Origin: Heliorestis convoluta
Lineage (GTDB): Bacteria; Bacillota; Desulfitobacteriia; Heliobacteriales; Heliobacteriaceae
DNA: 64,000 bases
Direction: 5' to 3'
Assembly: GCF_009649955.1 (NCBI RefSeq)
Contig: NZ_CP045875.1
Location: 372,001-436,000, forward strand
Below the pieces are notes generated by a model. The model did not search any database. It was not told the DNA's origin and saw only the letters and a list, made by a program, of their open reading frames with translations. Below are positions 32,642-57,753 of this stretch, one piece after another (within the stretch, counting starts at the first letter, position 1; each line of letters opens with the position of its first letter). The position numbers and the translations under genes were made by a program.

Positions 32642-34516
32642 CTAATTACAGCTATTGAAATTTGAATCGAAGGTATGGCTATGCGATCTTAAAGTTCCAA
32701 CAAGTGCATTATAAGGAATCGATTTAGGTTTTACGTTATTAGCTGGAACCTCCAAATATAAGTTGTTAACAAAAATACTGCCTATACTAGTACCTGTTGG
32801 TGGAGATAGACACAAAATCAGATTGCTTTGTGTTGAGTTTGTAAGGATTTTTAAGTCAGCATTTTGTGCGAAAATATTTTGACCAGCCCTTATTTCTATG
32901 TATCTTCTAGCTGTTAAGCTTGCATTTCTTATATCTACATTTTTTCCAGCTTTTATTATTATCTCTTCATTCACGTTATTATTGGGATATTGAGAGAGTA
33001 ATATAACACCTTCTTCTAAGACAATATCGCCATTAACAGCCGTTAAACGAATAATGGGATGGTTATGGGTTGTTACTAATTCTACACCCGATTCAATGAT
33101 GATTCCTTCTGGTGCTGTAAAACTGAACTCATTCGGATGACTTTGCCTTCCTACTTGAGAGCTTATGATGAGCTTTACCCAATCTTCATCTTCTTCAACA
33201 GTGTTTATTACATTTCTAAAGGGCATTGGTAGTAATGTACCTGCTTGATCAACATAAAAGACGATCCCATCGCCTCCCTTAGAAGGGTTTCCTTCTTCTA
33301 TAAGAATGATTTGCCATTTCCTTCCATTCGATCCATCTTGTGCTTTCACAACATAGGTAACTGATGTAACCTCGTTATTATTATCTGCACTGCTAAAATG
33401 CGATACTTGGATTCCACTTTTTTGTTGTTGCAATGTCCCATTAACGTCTACGTATGCTGTTGCACCAGGAGATAACTCAAATGTTACAAGCGCCAGTCCT
33501 AAATGAAGTGATTCTGGAACTTTAACAATAACGTAGCTATGTTGCTCACTGATATAAGCATCACCAATTTGTCCTGCAATCGAAAAATCAAGAATACTAT
33601 TTCCGCTAGCAAGATGCTTAGGAGGGACATTCACGGATACCTCTTCGGGACTCCTAACGTTGTTGTTATCGATATCTTTAATAGCTATTTCCAAATTGCC
33701 TTGATCATAGATAAGGTTATGACGTCCTCCCTGGGTAACTGCATAGTTTTGAAACAGTAGCTTTAAAGAATGAGAGCCTTCTCTTTCAATAATATACGGA
33801 TTTACAGTGTTACTATCAAATTCCAAACTGAATAGGTTCGTTGCTTCATTACTAGCAACACTTGTCAGTTCTCTTGTATAAGTGACGATTACCTCTAAAT
33901 TATCGCCACTCCACTGGGCCGTTGTTGACATAATCCTGCTTATCTCTATCGGTGGGTTCGTGATTTGCCTTCGTTCACTTTTATAAGCAACAGCGATTCC
34001 CGCGTTCCCAACCGCTTCCTCTAGATGATTAAGAAACCTTACAGTCGTTGCAATGCTATAACTATCTTCTATACTGTTATTTTTTATTTCGAAAGAAATC
34101 AGATGGCTCTCTAATGAAAAACTAAGATTCTCATCCAATGTTACTCTGTCAGCAATATTGCCAAAGGGAGCCAATTCTTCACCAAAAGCTTCTCTATGCG
34201 TGAGTTGACCTTCTTTCACATAGATGTAATGGTAATCATCTTCTAAAAAATCTTCATCAGGAATAAAACTTAAAACTTGTACATGAGTCGCATACGTAAG
34301 CTCTTGCGTAATAAAGTCTGCCGCAAAACGAATATTCTGCCTTACATCGGATCGCACTTCTCCGGTGGCAAAAGAATTATAACCGAAAAAGTAAAAGGAA
34401 TAGCCAAGGGTCATCACCAAGCTCAACAAAGCAATTCCTACTAGCAACTCAACCAAGGTAACCCCTTTGTTATTCCTTATGTAATTTTTCTTAGTCGATC
34501 TGAAAGCCGCTTTCAT
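32642..34516 (-). CDS. Large PilW-like pseudopilin with C-terminal adhesin-like region
   Basis: About 624 residues. A type III (prepilin) signal NNKGVTLVELLVGIALLSL begins near residue 17, with cleavage after Gly and Glu at +5. The first 170 residues resemble minor pilins of the PilW/PulJ group. The rest is far beyond normal minor pilin length (150-350): a segment with LVTFELSPGATAYVDVNGTL and YVVKAQDGSNGRKWQIILI resembles the beta-sandwich domain of secreted surface proteins, and the end (about 480-610) is a repetitive beta-rich stretch with alternating I/V and N. ATG 34516 has GGAGG at 8 bases. It could be a pilus-tip adhesin; that is inference. Confidence 0.75.
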   Translation of the reverse strand: MKAAFRSTKKNYIRNNKGVTLVELLVGIALLSLVMTLGYSFYFFGYNSFATGEVRSDVRQNIRFAADFITQELTYATHVQVLSFIPDEDFLEDDYHYIYVKEGQLTHREAFGEELAPFGNIADRVTLDENLSFSLESHLISFEIKNNSIEDSYSIATTVRFLNHLEEAVGNAGIAVAYKSERRQITNPPIEISRIMSTTAQWSGDNLEVIVTYTRELTSVASNEATNLFSLEFDSNTVNPYIIEREGSHSLKLLFQNYAVTQGGRHNLIYDQGNLEIAIKDIDNNNVRSPEEVSVNVPPKHLASGNSILDFSIAGQIGDAYISEQHSYVIVKVPESLHLGLALVTFELSPGATAYVDVNGTLQQQKSGIQVSHFSSADNNNEVTSVTYVVKAQDGSNGRKWQIILIEEGNPSKGGDGIVFYVDQAGTLLPMPFRNVINTVEEDEDWVKLIISSQVGRQSHPNEFSFTAPEGIIIESGVELVTTHNHPIIRLTAVNGDIVLEEGVILLSQYPNNNVNEEIIIKAGKNVDIRNASLTARRYIEIRAGQNIFAQNADLKILTNSTQSNLILCLSPPTGTSIGSIFVNNLYLEVPANNVKPKSIPYNALVGTLRSHSHTFDSNFNSCN

Positions 34517-34546
34517 GGCTTTTCCCTCCAAGTATGAGAGCTTGCT

Positions 34547-34897
34547 TTATTCGCTATGAGATGTGTTGCTAACAGGTGCGTAATAGATAAGTGTGTCTTG
34601 TATAAGTTTCTGGGCATTGATCTCGATTGTGACATTGTCACTGCCATCAGAGAAGGTAATCTCAAAAAGCGATGAACCATTGGTTTCATTGTTTAATTCT
34701 GATATTTCATTTTCTAATTCGCGCTGAGCTTGATACAAGTCTGTACTTCGATTACCGCTTGCCATGATCCCCGTAAAACTCGTTGCCATCAAAGGAGCGA
34801 CTGCAACAATTAAGATGGTTAGAATCACGAGAGATATGAGAACTTCAACAACAGAGAAACCTTTCTTGCAAGAGGACAGATTTTTAATAGTTTTCAT
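34547..34897 (-). CDS. PilV-like minor pseudopilin
   Basis: 116 residues. The prepilin signal CKKGFSVVEVLISLVILTIL begins near residue 10, with Gly/Phe cleavage and Glu at +5; a single helix and a short beta domain follow. It overlaps the preceding PilX-like gene by 14 bases and is followed by the large PilW-like gene. The set of PilX-, PilV- and PilW-like proteins is typical of a priming complex at the pilus tip. Confidence 0.8.
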   Translation of the reverse strand: MKTIKNLSSCKKGFSVVEVLISLVILTILIVAVAPLMATSFTGIMASGNRSTDLYQAQRELENEISELNNETNGSSLFEITFSDGSDNVTIEINAQKLIQDTLIYYAPVSNTSHSE

Positions 34898-35291
34898 AGG
34901 ATCGACTCCAATATCTACGATTTGGATCTATCACAACATACAAGGTTTCTGTGACATCATCGACAAAGCCTGTTGACTTCAGAGCCCTTCCGTCATCAAT
35001 AATTTCAACGGTAAAGGAGACTGATTGATTGTTATAGACTTGCTGCGTCGATGTCTTCCCTTTTAATTCTTCTAGACGATCTTGTTGCTCATCGGGATCT
35101 TCGTCAAGATATGCCAGTACAAGATCAGCGCCTGAACGAGCTAAGTAATGCGCCTGCATTCTCTTCTCATCAATCGTGACATGCTTTAGATCGACCATTG
35201 CATACTGCCATAAAGCTGTGCTTACCATCATCATTACAAGTACTATGATTAGTACCAAAGGCAGTGACCATCCCTTTTCATTAGAAAGCAA
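34884..35291 (-). CDS. PilX-like minor pilin component
   Basis: About 135 residues. A prepilin-like start NEKGWSLPLVLIIVLVMMMV lacks Glu at +5, as is common for the PilX/GspK class. QAHYLARSGADLVLAYLD is the conserved PilX stretch. The frame is open from ATG 35306, but that codon has no ribosome site; TTG 35291 has GGGAGG at 7 bases. First gene of the PilX-PilV-PilW-VanZ operon. Confidence 0.75.
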   Translation of the reverse strand: MLSNEKGWSLPLVLIIVLVMMMVSTALWQYAMVDLKHVTIDEKRMQAHYLARSGADLVLAYLDEDPDEQQDRLEELKGKTSTQQVYNNQSVSFTVEIIDDGRALKSTGFVDDVTETLYVVIDPNRRYWSRSYENY

Positions 35292-35510
35292 AGATTTCCC
35301 TCCCATCTAGTGGTGCTATCTATCATCTATACTTTCTTACTTTCATTATACACTTTCTTCACCCATTTAGAGCTTCTCTTTTCACCATGTAAGAACAAGT
35401 TCTTTTAGTTTTTCTTGAAAAGTTTCACTTTTGCTAATTCAAACCAATAAGCCAACTCTCTCTAGAATTATAAAGCGAATATAAGATAATAGTAAGAAAC
35501 TTATATCCCT

Positions 35511-41381: not shown

Positions 41382-41389
41382 AAAAAGTA

Positions 41390-41493: not shown

Positions 41494-41568
41494 AGATTAC
41501 TTTTTTTGAGCCGATGTATTAAGGATTTGTGCATTTGGCAGAGTTAGCGGTGGATTTCTCATCCTTAA

Positions 41569-42018
41569 TTATTGCACCATCCTATTGAATACTTCTTTTT
41601 TTTGCAAGCCTATTTTTTTTGAAAGAGCTTCACCCTGCTCATTAATAAAAACAAAGGCAGGCACGCTGTCAATGCCATATTTGCGACTAAGCTCATGGTT
41701 ATCTCGATTGGAAAGATCAATTTTCTCTAATGAAACTTTATGTAAGGCTTCTTTATTTTCTGCAAGCCATTCATTCAGTAGCGGTTCTTGATCCCCACAA
41801 AACCTACAATTGGGTGCAAAAAAATACAGCAAAGTACCTGGCTGAACTTCTTCTGCTGTTAATAGTACATACTCTCCCTGTTTATAATCGTCAATTAAAA
41901 CTCTTGTGGAACTTCCAGTACAGCCACTGAGAAATAAAAAAGCCCATAGAAGAAGGATTGCTGTGGCCGCTTTTAAAGAAGTATCCTTTATTGGTTTTCT
42001 TATAATTCTAGCGAGCAT
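41569..42018 (-). CDS. Thioredoxin-fold lipoprotein
   Basis: About 149 residues. A lipoprotein signal ILLLWAFLFLSGC with lipobox Cys near residue 33, then a thioredoxin-like domain with FFAPNCRFCGDQEP (CxxC = CRFC) and the cis-Pro loop YGIDSVPAFVFI. ATG 42018 has AAGGAG at 10 bases and overlaps the upstream VKOR-like gene; the frame itself opens at 42069. Anchored outside the membrane, it could oxidise or reduce cysteines in exported proteins, re-oxidised by the VKOR-like partner. Confidence 0.82.
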   Translation of the reverse strand: MLARIIRKPIKDTSLKAATAILLLWAFLFLSGCTGSSTRVLIDDYKQGEYVLLTAEEVQPGTLLYFFAPNCRFCGDQEPLLNEWLAENKEALHKVSLEKIDLSNRDNHELSRKYGIDSVPAFVFINEQGEALSKKIGLQKKEVFNRMVQ

Positions 42019-42442
42019 AATGAAGATTCTCCTTCTTATCTTGTCGCTTCTTCCAAAGCCATAGTGCAAGAAGCATAGCTGTTAATGAGAATAAAGCATC
42101 TGATAAAAGGCATTGTGTGCAAAAGGAGCCCAAAGACCAAAAACGACCTAGTTGTATTAAAGTACCAAAAACTAGGGAAAAAAGTGTCAGATAAAAAGCT
42201 AGATAACCCAAAAAAACATTGCGTCCTGCTAAAGAAGCAAGACCAGCGATGAAAAAGGCCATTCCTGCCCCTAGTAGCCCAATGAATTCATCACCAACAG
42301 TCAACCAAGGAATAAAAGAACAAGCGCTACAGGCCTTCGTTATATACTTCTCCCAGGATACAAAAAGTAAGAAGAAAGCGTTTGCAATCGATACTAATGC
42401 CGCTCCATGATGAAATCGATTGTGCAATGGTATTGATAACAC
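42008..42442 (-). CDS. VKOR/DsbB-like membrane thiol oxidoreductase
   Basis: 144 residues with four hydrophobic helices. Two cysteine pairs, CSAC (about 37-40) and CTQC (about 109-112), match the loop and CxxC pairs of VKOR- or DsbB-type enzymes that oxidise a thioredoxin-fold partner using quinone. Overall similarity by eye is weak, so the fold is inferred from topology, cysteines and the coupled thioredoxin-like gene (11-base overlap). GTG at 42442 has GGGAGG at 8 bases. The 284 bases between pilA and this gene hold a terminator and AT-rich sequence with no clear promoter. Confidence 0.65.
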   Translation of the reverse strand: MLSIPLHNRFHHGAALVSIANAFFLLFVSWEKYITKACSACSFIPWLTVGDEFIGLLGAGMAFFIAGLASLAGRNVFLGYLAFYLTLFSLVFGTLIQLGRFWSLGSFCTQCLLSDALFSLTAMLLALWLWKKRQDKKENLHYAR

Positions 42443-42601
42443 TGCTTACGCCTCCCGTATTCATATAGTGAGCTAGATTATCGTTTACATTCGATCTTTT
42501 CTTAATTTTACATTCTATACTGTAACATACTAGTTTTAGTTTATAATTAATATAAGAAATCCACCTATTTAAAAAGCTATATAACATATTTAATATTTTT
42601 G

Positions 42602-42632
42602 AAAAATCCCCTACCTTAGGCAGGGGATTTTT
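42602..42632. terminator. Terminator of the pilin operon
   Basis: AAAAATCCCCT and AGGGGATTTTT with an inner CC/GG pair and one mismatch. A/T tracts on both flanks make it work either way; it lies about 95 bases after pilA. Confidence 0.75.
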
Positions 42633-42726
42633 CAAAAAAGATTCAAAATATTTAAAGTAACACTTGCATAGCCTCTGAATGAATAGAGCACAATTGGATA
42701 ACTTCCACAGCGGTAGTTATCCGAGG

Positions 42727-43134
42727 TTACTCTTGTAATTTATTTCCTTTTGAGTCTATCCTAACAGCTTCGCCGATAGAATTCTCATACTCTACTACAA
42801 CATAACAGTAATCCTCTTCTTCGTCTTCTCCAATTTCAATTTCATCATACTTATCATTCATAGCAACGACATCAAAAAATCTTGTATAATCAGCCTCGTC
42901 CCATGACAAATCAATACTCGGATCATTCATATTTTCTGATTTAATCAGCAAGCAGGCCGATTGAATACTTCTTGCGTCTGCTTTTGCAGCACCTTCTCGA
43001 GCAGAGTCAGTTGAACCACCAAACGACATAACTGCAATCGACACCAACACCCCTATAATCGCTACAACAACCATCAACTCAACCAGTGTAAAACCCTTCT
43101 GATTCTTCATGGCTTTTTGAACTCTTTGAAACAT
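42727..43134 (-). CDS. pilA: Type IV pilin (major pilin candidate)
   Basis: 135 residues. The class III signal NQKGFTLVELMVVVAIIGVL has cleavage between Gly and Phe and Glu at +5. A short globular domain follows, strongly acidic (IEIGEDEEEDYCYVVVEYEN) and with two Cys (CLLIKSEN, DYCYVV) that could form a disulphide. It is the last gene of the pil operon, the most likely shaft subunit here. The acidic face is unusual. ATG follows AGGAGGG. Confidence 0.88.
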   Translation of the reverse strand: MFQRVQKAMKNQKGFTLVELMVVVAIIGVLVSIAVMSFGGSTDSAREGAAKADARSIQSACLLIKSENMNDPSIDLSWDEADYTRFFDVVAMNDKYDEIEIGEDEEEDYCYVVVEYENSIGEAVRIDSKGNKLQE

Positions 43135-43199
43135 CTATTTCCCTCCTTCTTTTATGCTGCGACCGAAAAAGTAGATCGCTTATAATTGTCTTCATAGGA

Positions 43200-43208
43200 G
43201 TTATACCA
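43200..43208 (-). promoter_or_regulatory. Possible extended -10 promoter for pilA
   Basis: Minus strand TGGTATAAC about 65 bases upstream of the pilA start; the -35 is weak. A separate promoter would fit the need for more pilin than machinery. Confidence 0.3.
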
Positions 43209-43256
43209 GCGAGTCAACTTTTCAGACACTTTTTTTAACTTTTTCTTAATAATTTT

Positions 43257-44510
43257 TTAATTTGGATTGTTCACTTGTCTGTTCAAGTCTTTGATGAGTT
43301 GTATCTTATCGGGTGTTTCTTCTACCCAGAGGATATAGCGTGGATTGCCTACTGGGCCGATGTCACGAGAGATTCTAAAGCTTGACACAGGTACACCGGA
43401 TAGTTCACTGAGTAAGCTTCGTCGTGCATTCAGTACATTGGCGTCGTTTCCGTCTTCAACGGGCAAGCGTATTTTTGTGCCTACTCTATCTAATCTTTCA
43501 ATGGCTCCTCGTACGGTACTTTCTTTGTGTGGTGGGGAGATAACTAGGATTTCTTTGCTAAAGCGATCTGCGTTATTGGGAACAACACGAACATCAGGAC
43601 CGAAGTTAAATTCATTGAGCCACGCTGCAGCATCACCGGCTACGATATTTTTTAATGGATAGACAAAAACCGTTTGTTCTCGGGCTCTGATGGTATCCAG
43701 CTCTGCAATTGTTTTCTCAATCTCTTCCCAGTGTTCGAATAGTTCTTGATCGAAGACAAGGAGGCGCTGGTCCATGGTTAGATATCTTTCTAGATGGATA
43801 CCCATTTCGGTAAGCAATTGTAGCACTCGCTCCGGTGGGATTTGTGTTGTTGTAATGATGCGATATTCTAGGGAGAAAGGTTCTACGACTTCTGTTTCAT
43901 CAGACTCTTCTTCTTCTATTGCTTCATTTTCAATCCGATCGATTACATAGATCAGCTCCCGCACTTTGTGCAGTTCTTGTACTGTCCCTTGTACCCATAT
44001 GGCATTTTCATTGCTTTGCAGCAACAAGCTTTTGACTGGAATATTTAGCTCATTGATTAAGCTTCGTATGACCGGTGCTTTGACAAAGACAAGATCAAAC
44101 CGCTGGAGGAACATTTGATCATAAAAATGGGTATGTAAGTTTCCTGTCTGCCCAATTAGAATCATGGTACCTTGTTCTAAGTAAGCGAGACCGTTTTTGT
44201 TAATGAGCAAGTCAAAGGCATCACGAAGAGGTATATTTTTTACTTGTAAGTCTACTTTTTGCTGAATGTCGTCTACTAAGACAATGGTTGTACCCATTTT
44301 CAAGGCCAAGGCGGAGAAAAGATCTCGTAGTTCTACGTCTCGAGCATCTATGGTGATTCTTGCACTGGCTACACTTCTACTTCTATCCATGGCATGATCG
44401 CTGCTATAGATCATAGCATCGCCATAGAGGGTAGTTGGAAATAGGACGAGTTGAAACAGGAAGATGAAGAGGATCGTCAGTCCCATACTTTTTCGAAAAA
44501 TATCAATCAC
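43257..44510 (-). CDS. Secretin N-domain-only (PilQ-related) protein
   Basis: 417 residues: signal peptide or anchor (about 8-30), then a secretin/TonB short N-terminal domain (STN) (about 50-110: ITIDARDVELRDLFSALALK, VDLQVKNIPLRDAFDLLI) and further N1-like modules (FVYPLKNIVAGDAAAWL; VPNNADRFSKEILVISPP). The C-terminal beta-barrel secretin domain found in PilQ/GspD is absent, as suits a cell without an outer membrane. It sits at the pilQ position, after the PilP-like gene. The start is uncertain (GTG 44510 has a poorly spaced site; ATG 44486 is an option). Confidence 0.8.
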   Translation of the reverse strand: MIDIFRKSMGLTILFIFLFQLVLFPTTLYGDAMIYSSDHAMDRSRSVASARITIDARDVELRDLFSALALKMGTTIVLVDDIQQKVDLQVKNIPLRDAFDLLINKNGLAYLEQGTMILIGQTGNLHTHFYDQMFLQRFDLVFVKAPVIRSLINELNIPVKSLLLQSNENAIWVQGTVQELHKVRELIYVIDRIENEAIEEEESDETEVVEPFSLEYRIITTTQIPPERVLQLLTEMGIHLERYLTMDQRLLVFDQELFEHWEEIEKTIAELDTIRAREQTVFVYPLKNIVAGDAAAWLNEFNFGPDVRVVPNNADRFSKEILVISPPHKESTVRGAIERLDRVGTKIRLPVEDGNDANVLNARRSLLSELSGVPVSSFRISRDIGPVGNPRYILWVEETPDKIQLIKDLNRQVNNPN

Positions 44511-44520
44511 CTCTTCGCAT

Positions 44521-45060
44521 CTACTGTTGTTCTATGGGCCAATCTTTTACTCCATCAAAAGTCAATAAAAGGGCTCTATCTTCGAACAAAAGCACGACAC
44601 CATCACCGTGAATTTGCTCGACTTTCCAACCCCCGGCAATTTCTTGACCGACTTGGGTGATATAGGCTTTAGAGCCCGCTTCAACAATGGCAATGCTTGC
44701 ACCTCCATCGGATAAGAGGCCCTTGAGGGTAAAGGTTCCTGCAAAAGGATCTCGTACTTGATAAAGCCGTGGATCTTCATTTTCGTCGAAAGCGCGTACT
44801 TCTTCTGGCAAAAAGATAAGTGGCGACGGTTTCTCTACTCTTTCTTCAGTTATAATCCCTTCATTCCCTGAAAAGGTAGACACGTGATCTTTGAGATATA
44901 AAGCTGAAGCGACAATGACTCCCAGTAAGAGAGGGAGGCTTAACCAGAGCAGGCGAGGCGATAGCGCCTTTTTCTTATCATCACTTTTTTTTGTTTTTCC
45001 TTGCTTTGTCTCTATAGATTTGTTGCTGTCTACGTTGTTAGCTCCATTGTCTAAGACCAA
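44521..45060 (-). CDS. pilP: PilP/GspC-like type IV pilus assembly protein
   Basis: 179 residues: a charged cytoplasmic tail, one helix (about 38-55, LWLSLPLLLGVIVASALYL), then an extracytoplasmic homology-region domain (YQVRDPFAGTFTLKGLLS, AIVEAGSKAYITQVGQEIAGGW). The DPF and KGL motifs are typical of PilP. Located between pilO and the secretin-N gene, as pilP usually is. Start TTG at 45060 behind GGTGA. Confidence 0.72.
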   Translation of the reverse strand: MVLDNGANNVDSNKSIETKQGKTKKSDDKKKALSPRLLWLSLPLLLGVIVASALYLKDHVSTFSGNEGIITEERVEKPSPLIFLPEEVRAFDENEDPRLYQVRDPFAGTFTLKGLLSDGGASIAIVEAGSKAYITQVGQEIAGGWKVEQIHGDGVVLLFEDRALLLTFDGVKDWPIEQQ

Positions 45061-45120
45061 CGCTATGTCACCATCCCCTACTTGAAGCTTTTTCTTACTA
45101 CGACAGTCTAAGGCTTTCTA

Positions 45121-45666
45121 TTACCCTTTCTCGGAGGTCCGATAAAAAGAAATCGCTTGTATCTCCATGCGCAAACTCCCTGAAGCCTGCCGACCTCTGC
45201 TCAGGTTGACTTCTTCCACTCGCAGCGCTCGCTCTCCCGCTTGTAACCAATGTAACAGTCGAAGAAGCTCTTGATAAGAGCCTTCGACAACCAGTCGTAA
45301 GGGAATCTCCATGTAACCACTTCTTGATTGAGGGCTTTCAAAGCGAATTTCTACAAGATGTGCATTGGCTCTGTTGCTTTGTCCTTCTATAAAGCGAATC
45401 AGTTCCCCTTCTTCCGGTGTCGCTGGCATGAGGCGACTCAATTGAGCTTCATGTTCTTTCAATCGATCTAGGTTCTCTCTGAGTAGGAACATTTCTTCTA
45501 ATCGAGCCTGAGCAGCTTCTACATTCTTTTCCTCTTTCGCAAGAACTTGGCGTGTCCCTTGCAAAGACTGCCATTGCTGATAGATTATAAAGCTTGGTAT
45601 GAAAAGCAGCAGCAGCAGAATCGTACTCAGCAAGATTCGATGGCGGAACAAATCTTGTATGTTCAT
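45121..45666 (-). CDS. pilO: Type IV pilus assembly protein PilO
   Basis: 181 residues: short cytoplasmic N-terminus, one helix (about 12-29), a coiled coil (about 36-80), and a ferredoxin-like domain including MPATPEEGELIRFIEGQSNR and YQELLRLLHWLQAGERALRV. PilO pairs with PilN in the inner-membrane alignment complex. It lies 56 bases after pilN. Confidence 0.88.
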   Translation of the reverse strand: MNIQDLFRHRILLSTILLLLLFIPSFIIYQQWQSLQGTRQVLAKEEKNVEAAQARLEEMFLLRENLDRLKEHEAQLSRLMPATPEEGELIRFIEGQSNRANAHLVEIRFESPQSRSGYMEIPLRLVVEGSYQELLRLLHWLQAGERALRVEEVNLSRGRQASGSLRMEIQAISFYRTSEKG

Positions 45667-45722
45667 GTTTTTTAGGTTGTTGATGTTCCACTTGTCTGCT
45701 TTCAGGCCTCATCACCTGTCTT

Positions 45723-46283
45723 TTACTGAATGTCCTTCTTGTTGTCGATGGCTTCTCGATCGATTTGAGCTCTAAATTCAAATTGGGTCATAGCACCCGT
45801 ACTTTGATTCGAGAATTGGACTTGTGCCTTTTCGATTCCGGGAATCTCCTGTAAGATTTCTAACCACTGAGCCACTCCCTGATGATCGAGAGCCACCCCT
45901 CGCAAAGTAAGTTCATTGCCTCGTATAGAAATATTTTCTAGGGAGATATCTAAAGGCGATTGCAACCCTATTTGTAAGAGCAGTTCCGACCACTTTGTTG
46001 GCGTGCCTACTGCTTTTGTAACAACTTCATCAAAGCTTTTAACTTGTTCTAACCTTTCTTCGTACTGCCTAAATTGCGCCAATTGCTCTTCTAGCGTCAA
46101 ATGCTTCTGCCGTAAGAATTCAACTTCTGAATTGGCAGCTGCCGTTGCGCCAAGCAAGGCCGTATAGAAAAAAAACATCAACACCAAAGTCATGACGACG
46201 CCAATAAATATTTGGCGTTGTTTTCTTTTCTCGGCCCGCTTTGTTTTTAGCTCCTGCGGTAGAAGATTAATTCGAATGTCCAT
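45723..46283 (-). CDS. pilN: Type IV pilus assembly protein PilN
   Basis: 186 residues. The N-terminal IRINLLPQE is the cytoplasmic PilM-binding motif; a helix (about 27-50) and coiled coil follow, then a domain with DISLENISIRGNELTLRGVA. It starts 3 bases after the pilM stop, so the PilM-PilN pair is coupled. Confidence 0.9.
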   Translation of the reverse strand: MDIRINLLPQELKTKRAEKRKQRQIFIGVVMTLVLMFFFYTALLGATAAANSEVEFLRQKHLTLEEQLAQFRQYEERLEQVKSFDEVVTKAVGTPTKWSELLLQIGLQSPLDISLENISIRGNELTLRGVALDHQGVAQWLEILQEIPGIEKAQVQFSNQSTGAMTQFEFRAQIDREAIDNKKDIQ

Positions 46284-46286
46284 GTC

Positions 46287-47423
46287 TTAGTCCTCCAAAC
46301 CCCGCAGAGCCAGCCCAATGGCAGTGGAGAATTCAGCGCCTTCTCGCTCTAGGTCTAGGCCTTGCACTTGCACATTGCCCGTTAGCTTCTGCAAGGGATC
46401 TACTAGGGACAAGGGGGCGTCAAGTTCCCTTTTTAATGCTTCTACCAAACCAGGAAAGGTTGCGCCTAGACCACCAAGGACAATCTGATTGACATTGGTT
46501 AGTTCATTTTGTGTCATGTAGTAGCCCAGGGTAGAGCGCATCTGATTGGCCAAAGTGGTAGCCCATTCTTGCAAAGGATCGGTTACCTGGAAGGCTTCTT
46601 CACCAGGCCACTGGATTGTGGTAGTAGCAATCTGTTGCTCTCCTACGCTTTGCCTTGCTGAACTGGAAGATGGCGACAATAAGCCTTGCCATTGACTTTC
46701 TATTGGTTGAGGCTTTGGCTGTCCAAGGACTTGTGCAAGTCTGCCATCTATGTTGAGATCCAATAGATTTTGCGATAGGGGTCTGGCAAAGCGAGGAATG
46801 CCATCTACGAGTAAAAGAAAGGTTGTCAGCCCTGGTGCTAAATCGATAAGCAAAGTCGTACCCTTGCGCTGCGATTCCGTCAGAACACGCATGAGAGCAA
46901 AAGGCGAAGAATCGATAATGATTGGTTCTAAGTTCGCCTGCTGTAGAGCAGCCAAAGGTTTTTCTAGACCTTCTTTGCGAGCGCCGATTAACAAAAGCTC
47001 CCATTCATCACCTTTATCGCCTCTTCGCTCCCCGATCACAACATGTTCAAGAATCATTTGAGACGGCGGAATAGGAAAAAATTCATCGGCTTGAAAGCGC
47101 ACAGCCTGGGCTAACTTTTTTTCCGGGACTGCTTTAGGCAGTGTGCCAAGGCGCAGTAGAATCGACTTGTTGAAAAGGCCTATTACAACTTCTCTTCGTC
47201 GAAAGCCCGCTTTGTCCCAGAGCTTCTGTAGGGCGTCGGCAACAGCTTCAGGATCTTCGATACTACCATCTCGCACCGCCTCTGCTGGAATGCTTTGTCG
47301 GCCGGCTGCTACTATCGTCGGTGCTGTGGCTCGGCCTCTCAGCTCTACCGCTCGAATGACGGAACTGTTTATTTCCAAGCCCACTGCACTGGCTGACTGG
47401 AACCATTGGAAGAAGGAGGCCAC
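46287..47423 (-). CDS. pilM: Type IV pilus assembly ATPase-fold protein PilM
   Basis: 378 residues, actin-like fold. VGLEINSSVIRAVEL marks the first phosphate motif, LLIDLAPGLTTFLLL the second, and IVLGGLGATFPGLVEALKRE the adenosine motif. QAVRFQADEFFPIPPSQMIL is a PilM family stretch. It binds the PilN tail and links the cytoplasmic motor to the membrane complex. It starts 15 bases after the sigma factor gene. Confidence 0.9.
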   Translation of the reverse strand: MASFFQWFQSASAVGLEINSSVIRAVELRGRATAPTIVAAGRQSIPAEAVRDGSIEDPEAVADALQKLWDKAGFRRREVVIGLFNKSILLRLGTLPKAVPEKKLAQAVRFQADEFFPIPPSQMILEHVVIGERRGDKGDEWELLLIGARKEGLEKPLAALQQANLEPIIIDSSPFALMRVLTESQRKGTTLLIDLAPGLTTFLLLVDGIPRFARPLSQNLLDLNIDGRLAQVLGQPKPQPIESQWQGLLSPSSSSARQSVGEQQIATTTIQWPGEEAFQVTDPLQEWATTLANQMRSTLGYYMTQNELTNVNQIVLGGLGATFPGLVEALKRELDAPLSLVDPLQKLTGNVQVQGLDLEREGAEFSTAIGLALRGLED

Positions 47424-47438
47424 GGTGTAACACTCCCT

Positions 47439-48170
47439 TTACGATATATAGCGCATAAGATTGTGAAGGGTTCGCTTCAGCAACCGTGAAACTTGTCGTT
47501 GGGTAATGCCTAGAATTTCAGCTGCTTTCACTTGTGTCATATCTTGATAAAAAAGAAGATGGATAAGCTTTTGCTGCTCCTTGTTAAGCCGAGCAATGGC
47601 TTGGCGAAGGAGAATCTTATCTTCAATCGGTAGACGAAAGGATTCGTAGCGCTGATTGCGAAACCGTGATAAGTCAAGTTCCTCAAGAGAAACCCAACCA
47701 GCCCGCATGGCTTCGGCAACGCCCCTTTCTTGTACATTCAGTTCTTCTGCGATTTCTTGAAGAGAAGGTACATCCTCTCCCTTTTTCAACCGTTCTTCGA
47801 TCGTCTGGTTTACTTGTTTTTGCAATTGAACAATCCAGACAGGCCGACAAAAAGCTGCTTCTTTGCGAACAAAGTGACGAATCTCACCCATGATGCAGTG
47901 GCTTGCATAGGTGGTAAAGCGAGTACCATAAGCGGGATCATACTGGGAAATCGCTTTGAGCAATCCTTCATAACCACACTGCACGGCATCTTCCTGAGAC
48001 TGATCCGGTGCATAGAGCCGAGCAAAGTAACGAATGAGCGCTTTGCCTGCTTTCATCACTTCTTCTAAGTCTTGCTCTGAGCCACTTTGACGGTATCGTT
48101 CCACAGTCCGATCTAAGGCATCCGGCTGCAGCGTCTCTTCTCTCTGCTCTTTCGCTATATGGGCTTCCAT
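47439..48170 (-). CDS. Sigma-70 factor of the SigB/SigF/SigG type embedded in the pil operon
   Basis: 243 residues. Region 2 is complete: DQSQEDAVQCGYEGLLKAIS, YDPAYGTRFTTYASHCIMGE and IRHFVRKEA. Region 3 includes EERLKKGEDVPSLQEIAEEL, and region 4 has an HTH in MTQVKAAEILGITQRQVSRL. The architecture is that of SigB, SigF and SigG, but no anti-sigma or anti-anti-sigma gene is next to it. It begins 4 bases after the pilC stop and is followed by pilM at 15 bases, so it must be co-transcribed with the pilus genes. A role in pilus or envelope gene control is inferred. Confidence 0.85.
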   Translation of the reverse strand: MEAHIAKEQREETLQPDALDRTVERYRQSGSEQDLEEVMKAGKALIRYFARLYAPDQSQEDAVQCGYEGLLKAISQYDPAYGTRFTTYASHCIMGEIRHFVRKEAAFCRPVWIVQLQKQVNQTIEERLKKGEDVPSLQEIAEELNVQERGVAEAMRAGWVSLEELDLSRFRNQRYESFRLPIEDKILLRQAIARLNKEQQKLIHLLFYQDMTQVKAAEILGITQRQVSRLLKRTLHNLMRYIS

Positions 48171-48174
48171 GGGC

Positions 48175-49383
48175 TTACCCCCCTAGACCAGAGGTGACGA
48201 CAGAGAAAATGGGCATATAAACAGCCGTAATGATAACTGCAATAATAGAACCTACAAAAATCAGTAGGACTGGTTCAAGCAAGGATGTTAATCCTTTGGT
48301 CATCGTGGCCACTTCATCTTCATAAAAGTCAGCAGCGCGGTCTAATAGCTCGCTAATTTGACCTGATTCCTCCCCTACAGCAACCATGTCGATCATCATA
48401 GGCGGAAAAAAGTCATGTTTTGATAAGAGAGGCGCTATGCCGAGGCCTCGTTGAATGCCAACGGTTGCTTCTTTAACAATATTTGCAACCTGCGCGCTAC
48501 CACTTGCAGGGCCTGCTGCTTCTAATGCCTGAATCACAGGAATGCCACCTGTTAACAACGTAGACAAGGTTCGACAGAAGCGAGCGACCGTCGCTTTCTT
48601 GAGCAAATCACCGATAACAGGTATCTTAAATTTTATGCTTTCCCAAAGCACTTTGCCTGCTCGGCTGCGAACAAAAAGGCGAAAGAGAAGAAAAAGTACA
48701 AGCGGTGTGAGCAAGCCAAGGTACCAGTAACTATGTAATAATTTGCTCATGGTAATAATCAATTCTGTCAATACCGGCAGTTCCATGCCCGGTGGAAAAA
48801 AATCCATAAAGACTGGAACGATAAACCAGAGAACAGCCACGATGATAAGAATGGAAAAAGAGATTAGCGTAGCAGGAAAAAATGTAGCCGTCTTGATATT
48901 ATCGAGAATGCTTTTTTCTCGCTCCAGTTGCTGGGCTAGGCGCTTTAAGATTTCGTCCATAGCACCACCTAATTCGGCCGCTTTGATCATGTCCACATAC
49001 ATAGGGGAGAACATTTTGGGATAGGCCTGCAAAGATTCTGAAAAACTGGTGCCAGCTTCGACGTTACGAGCAATTTGCTCTACATTTTTTTTGATCTGCT
49101 TGTTGTTAGCCTGGGCAGAAAGGGTGAACAAGGCTCGCGTCAAAGGAATACCTGCTGATAGCACGGCGCCAAGCTGGCGCGTGAAGATGAGGACGTCGCC
49201 GATTTTTACATTTTCTTCAAGTTGTAGTGCTGTTAAAGGCGATGACCGTGCTTCTTTGATGTCAATGATCAGAAGTCCCATGGTACGCAGTCGGGCAATG
49301 ACGGTTTGCTGGTTATCGGCATCCATCTTGCCTTGGACGAACTCGCCTTCTTGGTCCAGCACCTGGTAGTTATATTGCGGCAT
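48175..49383 (-). CDS. pilC: Type IV pilus platform protein PilC
   Basis: 402 residues with two GspF domains (about 65-190 and 270-390) and three transmembrane segments (about 166-188, 218-238 and 370-392). FTRQLGAVLSAGIPLTRAL and FCRTLSTLLTGGIPVIQALE are the repeated GspF signatures. It is the inner-membrane platform driven by PilB and PilT. The stop is 4 bases before the sigma factor start. Confidence 0.94.
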   Translation of the reverse strand: MPQYNYQVLDQEGEFVQGKMDADNQQTVIARLRTMGLLIIDIKEARSSPLTALQLEENVKIGDVLIFTRQLGAVLSAGIPLTRALFTLSAQANNKQIKKNVEQIARNVEAGTSFSESLQAYPKMFSPMYVDMIKAAELGGAMDEILKRLAQQLEREKSILDNIKTATFFPATLISFSILIIVAVLWFIVPVFMDFFPPGMELPVLTELIITMSKLLHSYWYLGLLTPLVLFLLFRLFVRSRAGKVLWESIKFKIPVIGDLLKKATVARFCRTLSTLLTGGIPVIQALEAAGPASGSAQVANIVKEATVGIQRGLGIAPLLSKHDFFPPMMIDMVAVGEESGQISELLDRAADFYEDEVATMTKGLTSLLEPVLLIFVGSIIAVIITAVYMPIFSVVTSGLGG

Positions 49384-49395
49384 GGGCTCTCCTCC

Positions 49396-50487
49396 CTAAA
49401 AGAGCGTGTAGCTTTTGCGGATGGCCCGTTCTAATTCTGTTTTGTCAACGCAATACTCAAGGGCTGTCTCGCGCGTAATCAAGCCAGCGCTGACATGTTC
49501 GGCTAACGATTGATCCATCGTCTGCATGCCCATGTTGCGAGATGTTTGCATTGTTGTGTAGAGCTGGTGCTGTTTGCCTTCACGAATAAGATTGCGCACT
49601 GCAGGTGTACTAATAAGAATTTCAACAGCGGCAACACGGCCTTTGCCATCGGCGCGAGGTAGCAGTTGTTGCGCTACAACAGCTTGAAGGGAGTCTGCAA
49701 GTTGTTGGGCAATCTGGTTGCGCATATCACTGGGGTAAATATCAATAATCCGTTGCACAGCCAAAGCAGCCGTCTGGGTATGTAAAGTGGAAAAAACTAG
49801 ATGTCCTGTCTCAGCAGCTGATATGGCGATAGAAGTGCTTTCAAGATCCCGCATCTCTCCCACTAAGATAACGTCCGGATCATGGCGCAGAACGTGACGC
49901 AAAGCGTTGGCAAAAGAGTGGGTGTCGCTGCCGACTTCTCGTTGCTTGATCATGGACTTTTTGTGACTGTGTAGATATTCAATCGGGTTTTCCACAGTGA
50001 CAACATTGAGACTTGTCTGTTCGTTAATTAAGTCTATGACAGAAGCGAGTGTCGTTGATTTGCCACTTCCTGTAGGACCTGTTACGAGTACGAGTCCTCG
50101 GGGCAAGTCGGCAAAGGTTTTAATCACCGATGGCAGGTTCAAGTCTTCTAGCTTGGGAATCTTAATGGCAACAGCTCGAAAATTCACCGATAAGGTGCCC
50201 CGCTGCCACATGATATTGCCTCGAAAACGACTGACGCTCGGTACGGAATAGGAAAGGTCTAGTTCCCATTCTTTTTCGAGCTTTTCTTGTTGCTCTTTGT
50301 CCAAAATCGGGTAGATCAGCTTTTCAATATCTTGCGGCATGAGCCGAGGATATTGTTCTAAAAAGATCAACTGCCCGTGGATACGAACAACCGGTGGCAA
50401 TCCAACGGTAAGGTGTACGTCTGAACCATCTCGTCGAACCATGTCCGTTAAAATGCTATGCAAGTCAATCTTTTTGGATTCTGTCAT
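49396..50487 (-). CDS. pilT: Pilus retraction ATPase PilT
   Basis: 363 residues. Walker A VTGPTGSGKSTTLASVID, Asp box and Walker B (ILVGEMRDLESTSIAISAAE), His box (HLVFSTLHTQTAALAVQRII), and the PilT-specific AIRNLI-like VRNLIREGKQHQLYTTMQTS near the C-terminus. It powers pilus disassembly and so twitching or DNA uptake. Located 12 bases upstream of pilC. Confidence 0.95.
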   Translation of the reverse strand: MTESKKIDLHSILTDMVRRDGSDVHLTVGLPPVVRIHGQLIFLEQYPRLMPQDIEKLIYPILDKEQQEKLEKEWELDLSYSVPSVSRFRGNIMWQRGTLSVNFRAVAIKIPKLEDLNLPSVIKTFADLPRGLVLVTGPTGSGKSTTLASVIDLINEQTSLNVVTVENPIEYLHSHKKSMIKQREVGSDTHSFANALRHVLRHDPDVILVGEMRDLESTSIAISAAETGHLVFSTLHTQTAALAVQRIIDIYPSDMRNQIAQQLADSLQAVVAQQLLPRADGKGRVAAVEILISTPAVRNLIREGKQHQLYTTMQTSRNMGMQTMDQSLAEHVSAGLITRETALEYCVDKTELERAIRKSYTLF

Positions 50488-50573
50488 AATCTATGCACTT
50501 CCTTATGGGTCATCGCCTATTCAGGGAATAACAAGCTTCTTATCGTACCTATACCGTACTCTTACTGGAACCC

Positions 50574-52250
50574 TTACAATACGATACGAAGAATTTCTTC
50601 TAATGAAGTAAGTCCTTGCCGAACCTTATGCAATCCATCTTGTCGCAAGGTTATCATACCTTCTCGGACAGCTTGCGCTCGAATTTCCTGGGCTGAGGTT
50701 TTTTCTAGGATGAGAGGGCGCAGGGATTCGCTAATACGAAGGAGTTCATAGATACCAATTCGGCCACGGTAGCCTGTATTGGCACAGTAAGAGCACTTGC
50801 CCGGTTTGTAGAGGCGAAGGCTTTTCTCTCCTGGTAGCAACGGGAATCCTTCAATTTGTTCTAATTCTTCTGCTTTTGCTTCATAGGGGATGCGACACTG
50901 CAAGCACAGTCGGCGAGCTAGCCGTTGAGCCAATGCACAAGCAAGAGAGGAAGCAATCAGAAAAGGTTCTACTTCCATTTCAATCAAACGACTGATCGAT
51001 CCGGATGCATCGTTGGTATGTAAGGTAGAAAAAACAAGGTGACCGGTGATGGACGATTCAATGGCAATTCGTGCGGTTTCTTTGTCTCGAATCTCACCCA
51101 CCATAATCACATCAGGATCGTTACGTAAGATAGAGCGCAATCCTGAGGCAAAGTTGAGGCCAGCGCGGCTGTTGAGTTGGATCTGGCTCATGCCATCCAA
51201 TCGATACTCAATGGGATCTTCGATGGTGATGATGTTTTTCTCTACTTTGTCTAGTTCTGAAAGACTGGCATAGAGTGTCGTTGATTTACCACTGCCTGTG
51301 GGACCAGTAACAAGGATAAAGCCATAGGGTAGTGTAATGACCTGGCGAAATTGTTCGAGCACCATAGGTGCTACTCCGAGATCTTGAAGGGTAAGCATTG
51401 TCCCTGTGCGGTCTAGAAGGCGCATGGTGACACGTTCGCCAAAGCTAACAGGAAGAGAAGCGATACGTATATCAATCGGCCGCTCGTCGATCTTTAAGGT
51501 AATGCGGCCATCTTGGGGAATATGCTTGTTGGCAATATCCATACCCGCCATAACTTTAATTCTTGAGACAAGGCCGGCGTGGAGCCGACGAGGTGGTTCC
51601 ATAATATCATGCAAAACACCGTCGATACGAAAGCGAATGCGCAAGCTATTCTCATAGGGCTCAATGTGAATATCACTGGCTTTGGCACTAACAGCCTGAG
51701 AGAGGATCAAGTTGGCCAGTTGAACGGCTGCACGATTGCTTGTATCTTCTCCAGGTCCCATGATGGCTTCGTTAGACGGGTTGCTATCATCAGCAAAGTC
51801 GATGCCTGTACGGCCGTATTTTTCAATGGCTGCTTGGAGCTCACTATCTAAGCAAGCCACTGGTTTGATATCGTAGCCAGTGAGGACACGAAGATCGTCA
51901 ATGATCATCAAGTCCGTTGGATTTTTCATGGCTACGACAAGCTTGTTATGCTCAATTGCAATGGGCAAAGCTTGATAGCGCTTGGCTGCATCGGCTGAAA
52001 TCGTTGCCATCGCTGTCATATCGTAGCTGATCTTATTAAGAGGAACGTATTCTACATTGGATCGTGCAGCCATGGCGCGAGCAATATCTTCTTCGGAACA
52101 AAAGCCCATTTCTACAAGGGCTTCTCCCAAAAGTCCTCGGCCGCTTTTGTTCTGTTGCTCTAAAGCAATATCCAGCTGTTCTTGTGTAATAATGCCATTG
52201 TTGATCAGCCATATCCCAATGGGAAAGTTTTTCGCTTTGTCTATTCTCAT
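50574..52250 (-). CDS. pilB: Pilus extension ATPase PilB (GspE family)
   Basis: 558 residues: MshEN-type N-terminal domain (about 1-140, with LLGEALVEMGFCSEEDIARA), Walker A VTGPTGSGKSTTLYASLSEL, Walker B region MVGEIRDKETARIAIESSIT, and a tetracysteine zinc site (LCLQC, CSYC). The frame opens at 52316, but ATG 52250 has GGAG at about 9-11 bases and matches PilB starts. The MshEN domain may bind cyclic-di-GMP, which would connect it to the signalling genes at 28-32 kb; this is inference. Confidence 0.93.
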   Translation of the reverse strand: MRIDKAKNFPIGIWLINNGIITQEQLDIALEQQNKSGRGLLGEALVEMGFCSEEDIARAMAARSNVEYVPLNKISYDMTAMATISADAAKRYQALPIAIEHNKLVVAMKNPTDLMIIDDLRVLTGYDIKPVACLDSELQAAIEKYGRTGIDFADDSNPSNEAIMGPGEDTSNRAAVQLANLILSQAVSAKASDIHIEPYENSLRIRFRIDGVLHDIMEPPRRLHAGLVSRIKVMAGMDIANKHIPQDGRITLKIDERPIDIRIASLPVSFGERVTMRLLDRTGTMLTLQDLGVAPMVLEQFRQVITLPYGFILVTGPTGSGKSTTLYASLSELDKVEKNIITIEDPIEYRLDGMSQIQLNSRAGLNFASGLRSILRNDPDVIMVGEIRDKETARIAIESSITGHLVFSTLHTNDASGSISRLIEMEVEPFLIASSLACALAQRLARRLCLQCRIPYEAKAEELEQIEGFPLLPGEKSLRLYKPGKCSYCANTGYRGRIGIYELLRISESLRPLILEKTSAQEIRAQAVREGMITLRQDGLHKVRQGLTSLEEILRIVL

Positions 52251-52460
52251 AATCCTACGCACTCCGTACGTTCTTTTTGTCTTTAGGATCGATAAAAAAA
52301 GGGACTTTCCACCCACCTATTGGATCCCTTCTTTTACTATACTTTATCTGTAGTTCTACTCTTATTGTAACGCTCCTGACAGTAGGACTCTATGGGACTA
52401 AGGTACTAGATCGATAGGTCTATTGACAAACAATTTGGCTTTTAAGCAGGCCTATCCGTA

Positions 52461-52507
52461 GCTTAGCTGGCGGTAACAGCGTGGGGCCGTCCAGGAGCGG
52501 AGGAAGC
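52461..52507 (+). repeat. Fragment of the structured repeat (module 2)
   Basis: GCTTAGCTGGCGGTAACAGC and GTGGGGCCGTCCAGGAGCGG, then AGGAAGC, match the right half of module 2 with small changes. It is next to the prepilin peptidase gene end. Confidence 0.7.
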
Positions 52508-52525
52508 TACATCCATTGCTGATAC
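52489..52525. repeat. 37-bp direct repeat, unit 1
   Basis: Identical over 37 bases to 52564-52600. It joins repeat-derived sequence (GTCCAGGAGCGGAGGAAGC) to a copy of the last codons of the prepilin peptidase gene. Confidence 0.9.
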
Positions 52526-52563
52526 AAGAGAAACTGTTGATGCCGCCCTTTCTTCTAGGTTCT

Positions 52564-52600
52564 GTCCAGGAGCGGAGGAAGCTACATCCATTGCTGATAC
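52564..52600. repeat. 37-bp direct repeat, unit 2, overlapping the prepilin peptidase stop
   Basis: Second unit of the 37-bp duplication, 75 bases from the first in register. It contains the stop codon (52582-52584) and the final codons of the prepilin peptidase. Confidence 0.9.
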
Positions 52601-53346
52601 CACGTCAAAATTGAGTTGCCCCAGAACAGTACGATAAGTGCTGCTATGGCCAGATAGGGGCCAAAAGGAATGGCTTCTTTCATCGTTTTGCCTTGATAGA
52701 GGATTATAGCTAGACCTGCTATCGCACCGAGGAAGAATGAGAAAAAAAGAACAAGGAGGATTTGGGGCCAGCCAAGAAAAAGACCTAGAATGCCTGCCAG
52801 TTTGATATCGCCTCCACCCATGCCGCCTTTTGATACAATTGCTATAAGCAATAGAAGGCCTCCACCGACGAGCAATCCAATGAAGCCCGATAGTAGTTTT
52901 TCTAGAGATTGAAAAGCTGTTAGGGGGATTCCTATAATCAGGGCTGTCAGCATGAGCTGATCAGGAATGATCATGTGATCGATGTCGATAAAGACAACAG
53001 CCAGTAAAAGGGAAAATAAAAATGCTGCTGCAAATCCTTCCAAGGTAAGGCCAAAAGTTCCATAGATGACGAGATAGGCCAAGCCATTTGTTCCTTCTAC
53101 AAAGGGATAGCGAAGAGAGAAGGGTTCTTGACAATAGCGACAGCGCCCTCGGAGGCTTATGTAGCTGATCAGGGGAATTAGATCTTTCCACTTTAAAAAG
53201 GTCTCACAGGCACCGCAAGCCGAAGGTGGCATAATAACAGATTTCTCTTGAGGCATGCGATAGATGACTACATTAAGAAAGCTGCCAATGGCGGTGCCTA
53301 GGACAAAAACAAGGAGATAGAAAAGCCCAGTGAACTCATTCATCAT
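52582..53346 (-). CDS. pilD: Prepilin peptidase (leader peptidase / N-methyltransferase)
   Basis: 254 residues with seven or eight helices. Methyltransferase zinc cysteines CGAC (about 43-46) and CRYC (about 68-71) are present, as are the catalytic Asp pair in FIDIDHMIIPD and GGGDIKLAG. It cleaves and N-methylates the pilins encoded here. The last few codons lie in a 37-bp direct repeat next to a mobile-repeat fragment, so the 3' end has been rearranged without loss of core motifs. It follows aroB by 27 bases. Confidence 0.94.
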   Translation of the reverse strand: MMNEFTGLFYLLVFVLGTAIGSFLNVVIYRMPQEKSVIMPPSACGACETFLKWKDLIPLISYISLRGRCRYCQEPFSLRYPFVEGTNGLAYLVIYGTFGLTLEGFAAAFLFSLLLAVVFIDIDHMIIPDQLMLTALIIGIPLTAFQSLEKLLSGFIGLLVGGGLLLLIAIVSKGGMGGGDIKLAGILGLFLGWPQILLVLFFSFFLGAIAGLAIILYQGKTMKEAIPFGPYLAIAALIVLFWGNSILTWYQQWM

Positions 53347-53373
53347 AACTTTCGATCCTTTTAGATGTCTTTG

Positions 53374-54531
53374 CTAGGGGTTTACAGATAGTTCTTCGAT
53401 TACTTCAAGAGCTATTGTAAGGTCCCTATCTTTATGAATCTGGCAGGCGCCAATGCTTTGAGGAATAATAAATATGACTTTGCCTGATTTTACTTTTTTG
53501 TCTAGCGAAAAAGCTTTTTCCCAATTTTCGCGAGAGAAGTTGGGGAATTGGGTGGGCAAATTGGCTGCGTACAGTAGTTTGATGAGGCGCTCTCTTACTT
53601 GCGAGGAGAGGTTGTTCTTCTTTTCGGCGAGGCGGCAGGCTGCAACAAGGCCGATGGCAACCGCTTCGCCATGGCGGTAGACCTGATAGTGGGTGAGCGT
53701 TTCAATGGCATGGCCGAAGGTGTGGCCTAAATTCAATAGGGCACGTTGCCCTTTTTCTTCTTCATCTGCTGAAACGACCGCTGCTTTGATGCGACAGCAA
53801 GCTGCAATGGTGTGGCGTAGGGCGTCTGGTTCTAATTGAAGAATGGCCTGGCTGTTTTTTTCTAGATAACCAAAAAGTTCGCTATCTCCTAGCAGGGCTG
53901 TCTTAATGATTTCGGCATAACCGGCACTAATTTCTCGTGACGGCAAGGTTTGTAAAGTCTCGCTATCAATCAAAACTGCTTGCGGCTGATAGAAAGCGCC
54001 AATAAGGTTTTTGCCTTTCCGATGATTGACGGCGACTTTGCCACCTACGCTAGAGTCAACCTGGGCAAGAAGGGTTGTGGGAATCTGGATAAAAGGAATG
54101 CCCCGCATATAGGTGGCAGCGAGCAGTCCAGCAATGTCACCGACGATACCACCACCAAGGGCGACAATGAGAGAGGAACGTTCTAGGTTTTTCTCTACAG
54201 CCGCATCGTAAAGGGTACTTAATGTATCAATTGTTTTATGTTCTTCACCATCCGGAATGGTGACGACGTCGACCGTTGCAGCAACTTTTTCTAAACTTTG
54301 TTGTAGTTTTTGCCCTTGTAGATCGTAGACCTGCTCGTTGGTTACGATGAGGATTCTTTTGCCTTCGATGCGTGGTCCTAGTATTTCGTGGGCATGAGAA
54401 AGGATCTGGTGGCCGATGTAGATGGGATAGCTACGATCCCCTAGCTGAACTTGCACTTCTGCTGTGACAGATTGTTGTTCTTCTTTTGGTGATGCTGCTT
54501 TTGTTGCGGGGATTTGCTCTTTGTCAACCAT
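53374..54531 (-). CDS. aroB: 3-dehydroquinate synthase
   Basis: Second step of the shikimate pathway, NAD- and metal-dependent. 385 residues with a low-complexity N-terminal lead of about 25. PDGEEHKTIDTLSTLYDAAV, ALGGGIVGDIAGLLAATYMR, IPTTLLAQVDSSVGGKVAVN, HRKGKNLIGAFYQPQAVLID, and the zinc ligands in LGHTFGHAIE and RHGEAVAIG are all present. Between aroK and pilD in one transcriptional direction. Confidence 0.95.
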   Translation of the reverse strand: MVDKEQIPATKAASPKEEQQSVTAEVQVQLGDRSYPIYIGHQILSHAHEILGPRIEGKRILIVTNEQVYDLQGQKLQQSLEKVAATVDVVTIPDGEEHKTIDTLSTLYDAAVEKNLERSSLIVALGGGIVGDIAGLLAATYMRGIPFIQIPTTLLAQVDSSVGGKVAVNHRKGKNLIGAFYQPQAVLIDSETLQTLPSREISAGYAEIIKTALLGDSELFGYLEKNSQAILQLEPDALRHTIAACCRIKAAVVSADEEEKGQRALLNLGHTFGHAIETLTHYQVYRHGEAVAIGLVAACRLAEKKNNLSSQVRERLIKLLYAANLPTQFPNFSRENWEKAFSLDKKVKSGKVIFIIPQSIGACQIHKDRDLTIALEVIEELSVNP

Positions 54532-54543
54532 TATAATCCTCCC

Positions 54544-55125: not shown

Positions 55126-55139
55126 TGCCTCTCTCCCCT

Positions 55140-57728: not shown

Positions 57729-57753
57729 GTATTTGCTTCATTCTTTTTTTCGA

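Follow-up and report, generated by a model that had tools for sequence, protein, structure and literature searches.

The closest functional counterpart of the sigma factor described here, which we call SIG, is cyanobacterial SigF, judging by the portions of the two reports on which we draw. These portions describe SigF of Synechocystis as a group 3 sigma factor that directly transcribes the major pilin gene pilA1, and whose loss removes the pilA transcript and the pili and leaves other pilus parts unaffected (PMC2758279, PMC7690835). The likeness lies in a group 3 sigma factor serving the major pilin gene, a role that for SIG is predicted from promoter conservation. SIG differs, however, in being encoded inside the pilus operon, and with PRK07408, which we take to be the cyanobacterial SigF model (cut-off 261 bits; our tree contained no cyanobacterial sequence), it scores 99.8 bits, no better than with the models of sporulation SigF (110 bits) or SigB (101 bits). 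FliA (sigma-28) offers a second parallel: SIG would be made with a machine and turn on a late filament gene, reminiscent of the early-to-late order of flagellar expression. Yet SIG falls below the cut-off of the FliA/WhiG subfamily (81 against 190 bits), its genome encodes a separate WhiG/FliA-type sigma factor, and an exported inhibitor of the FlgM type was not recognised. Type IV pili of Clostridioides difficile are controlled by a c-di-GMP-I riboswitch. Several relatives likewise carry c-di-GMP-I riboswitches within their pilus operons and in the leaders of pilA, but in these the switch is arranged in series with a dedicated sigma promoter or precedes the gene for the sigma factor. A sigma factor tied to the type IV pilus operons of Gram-positive bacteria (anaerobes) was not found in the open-licence literature, and the available parts of PMC3244431 (in which the word 'sigma' does not occur), PMC6958937, PMC3306737 and PMC7988955 do not describe SIG.

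The window that we analysed, a stretch of 64,000 nucleotides from Heliorestis convoluta (positions 372,001 to 436,000 of contig NZ_CP045875.1), holds a type IV pilus operon in the one-strand order pilD-pilB-pilT-pilC-SIG-pilM-pilN-pilO, followed by a gene in the pilP position, a secretin-N-domain gene and pilA (Table 1). An earlier note on this DNA had described a complete sigma factor wedged between pilC and pilM, and the coordinates and reading frame agree with it: SIG begins with ATG, has no internal stop, and is separated by 4 nt from pilC upstream and by 15 nt from pilM downstream. Nor did we find the anti-sigma partner that the note had reported missing. Among the neighbours scanned there was no gene of the RsbW/SpoIIAB kind, and the nearest anti-sigma gene found is the spoIIAB homologue beside SigF, about 71 kb from SIG. 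The secretin-N-domain protein without a pore domain keeps the same place in relatives.

Table 1. Features of the SIG locus, and of related loci in other genomes, with the basis of each assignment.
Feature	Position	Strand	Basis
SIG, pilus-locus family sigma factor, 243 aa	47439..48170	-	ORF list, Pfam, NCBIfam, tree
pilC, platform protein, directly upstream of SIG	48175..49383	-	T2SSF
pilM, directly downstream of SIG	46287..47423	-	TIGR01175 above cut-off, Pfam
pilT (presumed, rather than pilB), T2SSE ATPase	49396..50487	-	Pfam; no MshEN domain, unlike PilB
pilB	50574..52316	-	T2SSE and MshEN
pilD-like prepilin peptidase	52582..53346	-	named by eye; homologues at same place in relatives
pilN	45723..46283	-	Pfam PilN
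pilO	45121..45666	-	Pfam PilO
gene in pilP position	44521..45060	-	position; without Pfam or NCBIfam match
secretin N-domain protein	43257..44510	-	STN and Secretin_N; pore domain not found
predicted SIG promoter of pilA	43200..43228	-	motif search, matrix
pilA, major-pilin-type prepilin, predicted SIG target	42727..43134	-	N_methyl
small predicted membrane protein, VKOR-like by eye, downstream of pilA	42008..42442	-	no Pfam match
thioredoxin-like gene, downstream of pilA	41569..42069	-	
weak candidate SIG site, 39 nt upstream of minor-pilin-like operon	35345..35373	-	matrix score
minor-pilin-like operon	32642..35306	-	N_methyl in 32642-34531; rest by eye
members of that operon	34547-34897, 34884-35306	-	judged by eye
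sigma-PilO fusion, SIG-like regions and PilO domain	L151:1773-2834, plus nine relatives	-	
riboswitch-bearing loci	L151, L238, L256, L257, L258, L259, L263 and others		

Judged from its sequence, SIG is an alternative sigma-70-type factor of group 3, on the SigB/F/G branch, and a member of a family tied to pilus loci of type IV. The protein has the region 2 and region 4 domains by which the sigma-70 family is recognised (Sigma70_r2 and Sigma70_r4, 46.1 bits each, both above the gathering cut-offs) and a weak Pfam match to region 3 (21.9 bits, cut-off 25.3). Among solved chains, the closest are one labelled 'sigma factor' in 1l0o, at 78 bits, and one from 8x6g, at 67 bits. The label 'SigB/SigF-type' that SIG had been given holds for the broad branch, TIGR02980 (SigB/SigF/SigG) being its best NCBIfam model, and does not extend to the named subfamily, as the 127 bits obtained fall below the cut-off of 234. 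The more specific equivalogs are missed as well: sporulation SigF (110 against 321 bits), SigG (81 against 457) and general stress SigB (101 against 315). Neither is the setting spoIIAA-spoIIAB-sigF or rsbV-rsbW-sigB; the genes on both sides are pilus genes.

With SigF, SigG and SigB of Bacillota, SIG shares the broad branch, regions 2, 3 and 4, and promoter boxes like those of SigB. That its best general matches are the SigB/F/G models would also suit a SigF, SigG or SigB that had been relocated and has no special pilus role. We find this scarcely credible, because SIG forms a clade of its own, misses the subfamily cut-offs widely and has a pilus locus in 30 of 31 genes, and because the genome has SigF and SigG elsewhere. 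SIG also differs from the three factors in its own motif, a family-specific linker carrying LPIED and the lack of an adjacent anti-sigma gene. A Sigma70_r2 search of this genome (3.22 Mb, one contig) gave ten places, which we named from NCBIfam or by eye (SigA by eye): SigA, SigE, SigG, SigF, SigH, SigI, a WhiG/FliA type, an ECF type, the N-terminal part of SigK, and SIG. SigF adjoins SpoIIAB (above cut-off) and SpoIIAA (108 bits against 115), and SigG, above its own cut-off, adjoins SigE. Since SigF, SigG, SigE, SigH, SigI, the WhiG/FliA type and SigA are all present, SIG is an extra sigma factor. In a tree of 44 proteins, with the genome's own SigA, SigE, SigF, SigG and WhiG, nine SigF-like and two SigB-like proteins as outgroups, a branch with 100/99 support separates all 28 SIG rows from the rest; several of the outgroup branches are long and were flagged by the tree program. 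The phylogeny that the earlier note had proposed therefore sets SIG apart from SigF, SigG and SigB. A displaced SigF or SigG, the outcome that would have told against the note's reading, is contradicted by this separate clade and by the presence of both factors at their usual loci.

The same genome carries a sigK gene that is cut after its N-terminal part (L054:7003-8909; G000:C1 about 2751000-2752900) and followed by a convergent gene for a large serine recombinase (Resolvase, Recombinase, zinc ribbon). The interruption looks like a skin-type element; the C-terminal part of sigK was not found within the 15 kb examined.

The position of SIG is conserved well beyond its closest relatives. Four of nine genomes of its own family have it, at 258 bits or more (next match 79), always between pilC and pilM. 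Across the class (82 genomes), nine genes in eight genomes score 267-452 bits and all other matches 118 or less. In a sample of the phylum (398 genomes), 27 matches pass 1e-38. Two were excluded as lying outside pilus loci, those of G346 (140 bits, after a gene of the RsbW-like HATPase_c_2 type) and G269 (135 bits), leaving 25 genes in 24 genomes, a count that includes G260, which shows only the sigma-PilO fusion described below. Class and phylum together give 31 genes, 30 of them in pilus loci (the exception is one of two copies in G052), 22 directly after pilC and 16 also directly before pilM. Other genera have intact homologues in the corresponding position, many of them 44-53% identical, which puts this arrangement beyond chance. 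In genus g19, PilC and PilM have fallen to 28% and 19% identity, yet SIG is about 46% identical. PilM itself occurs in 301 of the 398 genomes (E 1e-10), so its co-occurrence with SIG says little on its own. A single-sequence scan of the contigs of close relatives returned only distant sigma factors, which we read as a FliA type and a group-2 sigma and set aside. In G059, SIG is shortened by an in-frame TGA (L110:9143-9820, minus strand), although it is intact in the neighbouring G061 and G062; two further genomes of that genus, G060 and G063, yielded no match at the level of SIG.

The proposal of pilin or minor-pilin genes as targets of this sigma factor has gained most for pilin, through a conserved promoter unlike that of SigA which precedes prepilin genes in 27 SIG genomes and none of 25 prepilin genes at loci without SIG. 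In the window it consists of a -35 box TGTCTGA (43228-43222), a 14-nt spacer and a -10 box GGTATAAC (43207-43200), one mismatch (TGTCTGA) from the family motif TGTCTAA-N14/15-GGTATAAC. The SIG of the window thus has the three marks of the proposed family, namely the clade, the pilus locus and the motif before pilA. Upstream of 18 prepilin genes at SIG loci, 15 sequences show TGTCTA or TGTCTG with a -10-like box at matching spacing, two of them one nucleotide longer. An unsupervised search of 13 genus-dereplicated pilA upstreams, covering gaps of 8 to 22, returned TGTCT-N16-GGTATAA as the best gapped word, present in 9 of the 13, against maxima of 3 in 100 dinucleotide shuffles and 2 in 100 random-window sets. 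Over 19 sites, some of them found by the motif itself, column information averages close to 1.9 bits in one box and 1.8 in the other, drops to 0.5 across the spacer, and an AT-rich tract lies upstream.

The 27 SIG-family genomes in which the motif precedes a prepilin gene, nearly always pilA, divide into 21 with a 14-nt spacer and six with 15; families f31 and f45 use the longer one, which a search fixed at 14 nt misses. In held-out genomes the motif again precedes pilA: in G127 and G165, on a contig other than that of SIG, in G471 and G497, and, with the 15-nt spacer, in G249, G387, G407 and G428. A degenerate site is all that G085 has, and the contig of G495 ends before pilA; no pilA with the motif was found in G104, G273 and G343, and no pilA was retrieved from G260. 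In the genome of the window the only copy of the 12-base core is the one at pilA. Both boxes look like those of the SigB promoter, GTTTAA-N12-14-GGGTAT, as expected of a factor in the SigB/F/G branch.

The same letters could be parsed differently, with pilA transcribed from a SigA promoter, the TGTCTAA box serving another regulator, and SIG acting on other genes. The -10 box includes TATAAC, 17 nt from TGTCTA, a distance that fits SigA, and the GG before it resembles an extended -10 element; moreover, G136 carries the motif although no SIG was detected there. We nonetheless judge this reading quite improbable. GG is nearly always present in the -10 box, the -35 box bears little resemblance to TTGACA, we recognised no further regulator gene common to the SIG loci (neighbours were labelled by blastp to pilus genes), and the motif tracks SIG across genomes. 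It precedes none of the 25 prepilin genes at ten SIG-free loci, of which eight come from SIG-negative genomes and two are second clusters of SIG-positive ones, and 19 of the 62 at the loci listed as positive, G136 and G377 included. G136 has no SIG match above 87 bits, and PilM is also undetected in that draft; its SIG is possibly on a missing contig.

The motif was first taken from pilA upstreams beside SIG, and counts in those genomes are therefore partly circular. Among 69 genomes, 29 called SIG-positive (including G260) and 40 SIG-negative, a one-mismatch match occurs in 19 of the former and five of the latter. The SIG-positive genomes hold 27 such sites, no great excess over the 14 of the reversed-pattern control, of which 27 sites 18 lie before a prepilin or PilX/DUF7305-type gene, with that of G418 as the nineteenth; the SIG-negative genomes hold five (control 14), one of them before such a gene (G136). 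In a blind test, the exact 15-base pattern has eight sites in seven of 398 genomes (reversed pattern, five in five), seven of the eight before pilA. Six of these genomes are SIG-positive, and the seventh, G377, had an unrecognised SIG-like gene. This gene (L212:9206-9751, minus strand; 126 and 75 bits) encodes 181 aa without region 3 and lies beside the exact motif before pilA. In the window's own genome the 12-base core with at most one mismatch gives 16 matches against 21 in the control; one-mismatch scans are too noisy for a regulon to be defined from them.

The gene, the family it belongs to, its location, the conservation of the promoter and the co-occurrence of these features are observed; from them we infer that SIG itself reads the pilA promoter and that control runs in this direction; direct reading of the boxes is suggested by the co-occurrence, the spacing and the resemblance to SigB-type promoters. 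SIG is very probably a pilin-dedicated sigma factor. It would be made together with the pilus platform (pilC-SIG-pilM) and would direct RNA polymerase to the motif before the major pilin gene, such that building the machine may license high-level transcription of the filament subunit. In some relatives it may also act on promoters before minor-pilin operons. A dedicated sigma factor with an explicit motif offers a testable rule for the identity of the major pilin, the timing of its expression and the coordination of machine and filament, and the motif also locates pilA genes that lie far from the pilus operon.

It is conceivable that SIG has a broad regulon, a surface or motility programme in which pilA is only the strongest target. 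Strong sites precede operons starting with DUF7305-type proteins, taken as minor-pilin operons, in G007 and G162, and in G437 an exact motif (L213:9356, plus strand) is followed, after about 317 nt, by the gene for an apparently secreted protein of 362 aa that matches nothing in Pfam. Many exported proteins are altered by deletion of cyanobacterial SigF, according to the part of the report used here (PMC7690835). We consider so broad a role unlikely, as in the window's own genome the exact core is found only at pilA and one-mismatch matches do not rise above the reversed control. The minor-pilin half of the earlier proposal is well supported in G007 and G162 and only weakly in the window. The 35.3-kb upstream region, named in advance, does contain a candidate site on the right strand, ranked third in the window by matrix score (10.3; the pilA site scores 25.5). 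This site has four mismatches to the consensus and is not among the best 25 by mismatch count.

Some relatives encode a degenerate copy of SIG. In G418 and G260 a SIG-like protein that has lost part of the core-binding motif and lacks region 4 continues into a PilO domain (Pfam PilO 21.4 bits against 22 in G418). Such fusions, not seen in the window, occur in 10 of the 40 genomes sampled from family f13, the other nine being 52-63% identical to the G418 copy. Nine copies align throughout and have no membrane-like stretch (top 19-residue hydropathy 1.18, against 3.36 in true PilO). Profile comparison matches the C-terminal part to PilO (99.7% probability, E 6.6e-27), and the fusion keeps the region 3/linker signature of the SIG family. 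Five of the ten fusion genomes have an intact SIG as a second gene (G418, G484, G489, G495 and G497) and G473 has an intact-type SIG cut by a contig end; none was found in the draft genomes G260, G469, G493 and G496.

Riboswitches of the c-di-GMP-I class, called above the Rfam threshold, recur at these loci. In G418, G471, G495 and G497 they are placed downstream of the motif, ahead of pilA or of the contig end. Others precede SIG (G418, G471, G473, G484 and G489), the fusion gene (G260, G469, G493, G495 and G497) or the SIG-holding operon (G122, G127, G196, G450 and G495). In G104 one follows pilB at a contig end. None was detected in seven other type IV pilus loci without SIG, in the window at the gathering threshold, or in 41000-58500 at E <=1. 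With riboswitches ahead of SIG, of its operon or of the pilA leader, c-di-GMP is the likely input in those relatives. The fusion and the riboswitches together suggest that c-di-GMP and the state of the pilus act on transcription through a direct circuit. As a tentative extension, the SIG family might physically talk to the pilus machine, the fusion acting as a sigma mimic, either reporting on a partner of the pilus or sigma factor or competing for it. Pilin transcription would then be tuned by assembly state and by c-di-GMP through the riboswitches, in a feed-forward arrangement gating both sigma and pilin message.

Two further observations concern the window. The PilA encoded there has two cysteines, and a pair like the thioredoxin-like and small membrane protein genes downstream of it recurs in G007 between two motif sites, beside the minor-pilin operon (L214:8431-9289); a disulfide role for the pair is a guess. 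At 303-919 on the minus strand lies an OLE RNA (Ornate Large Extremophilic RNA) that covers the full model at 512 bits.
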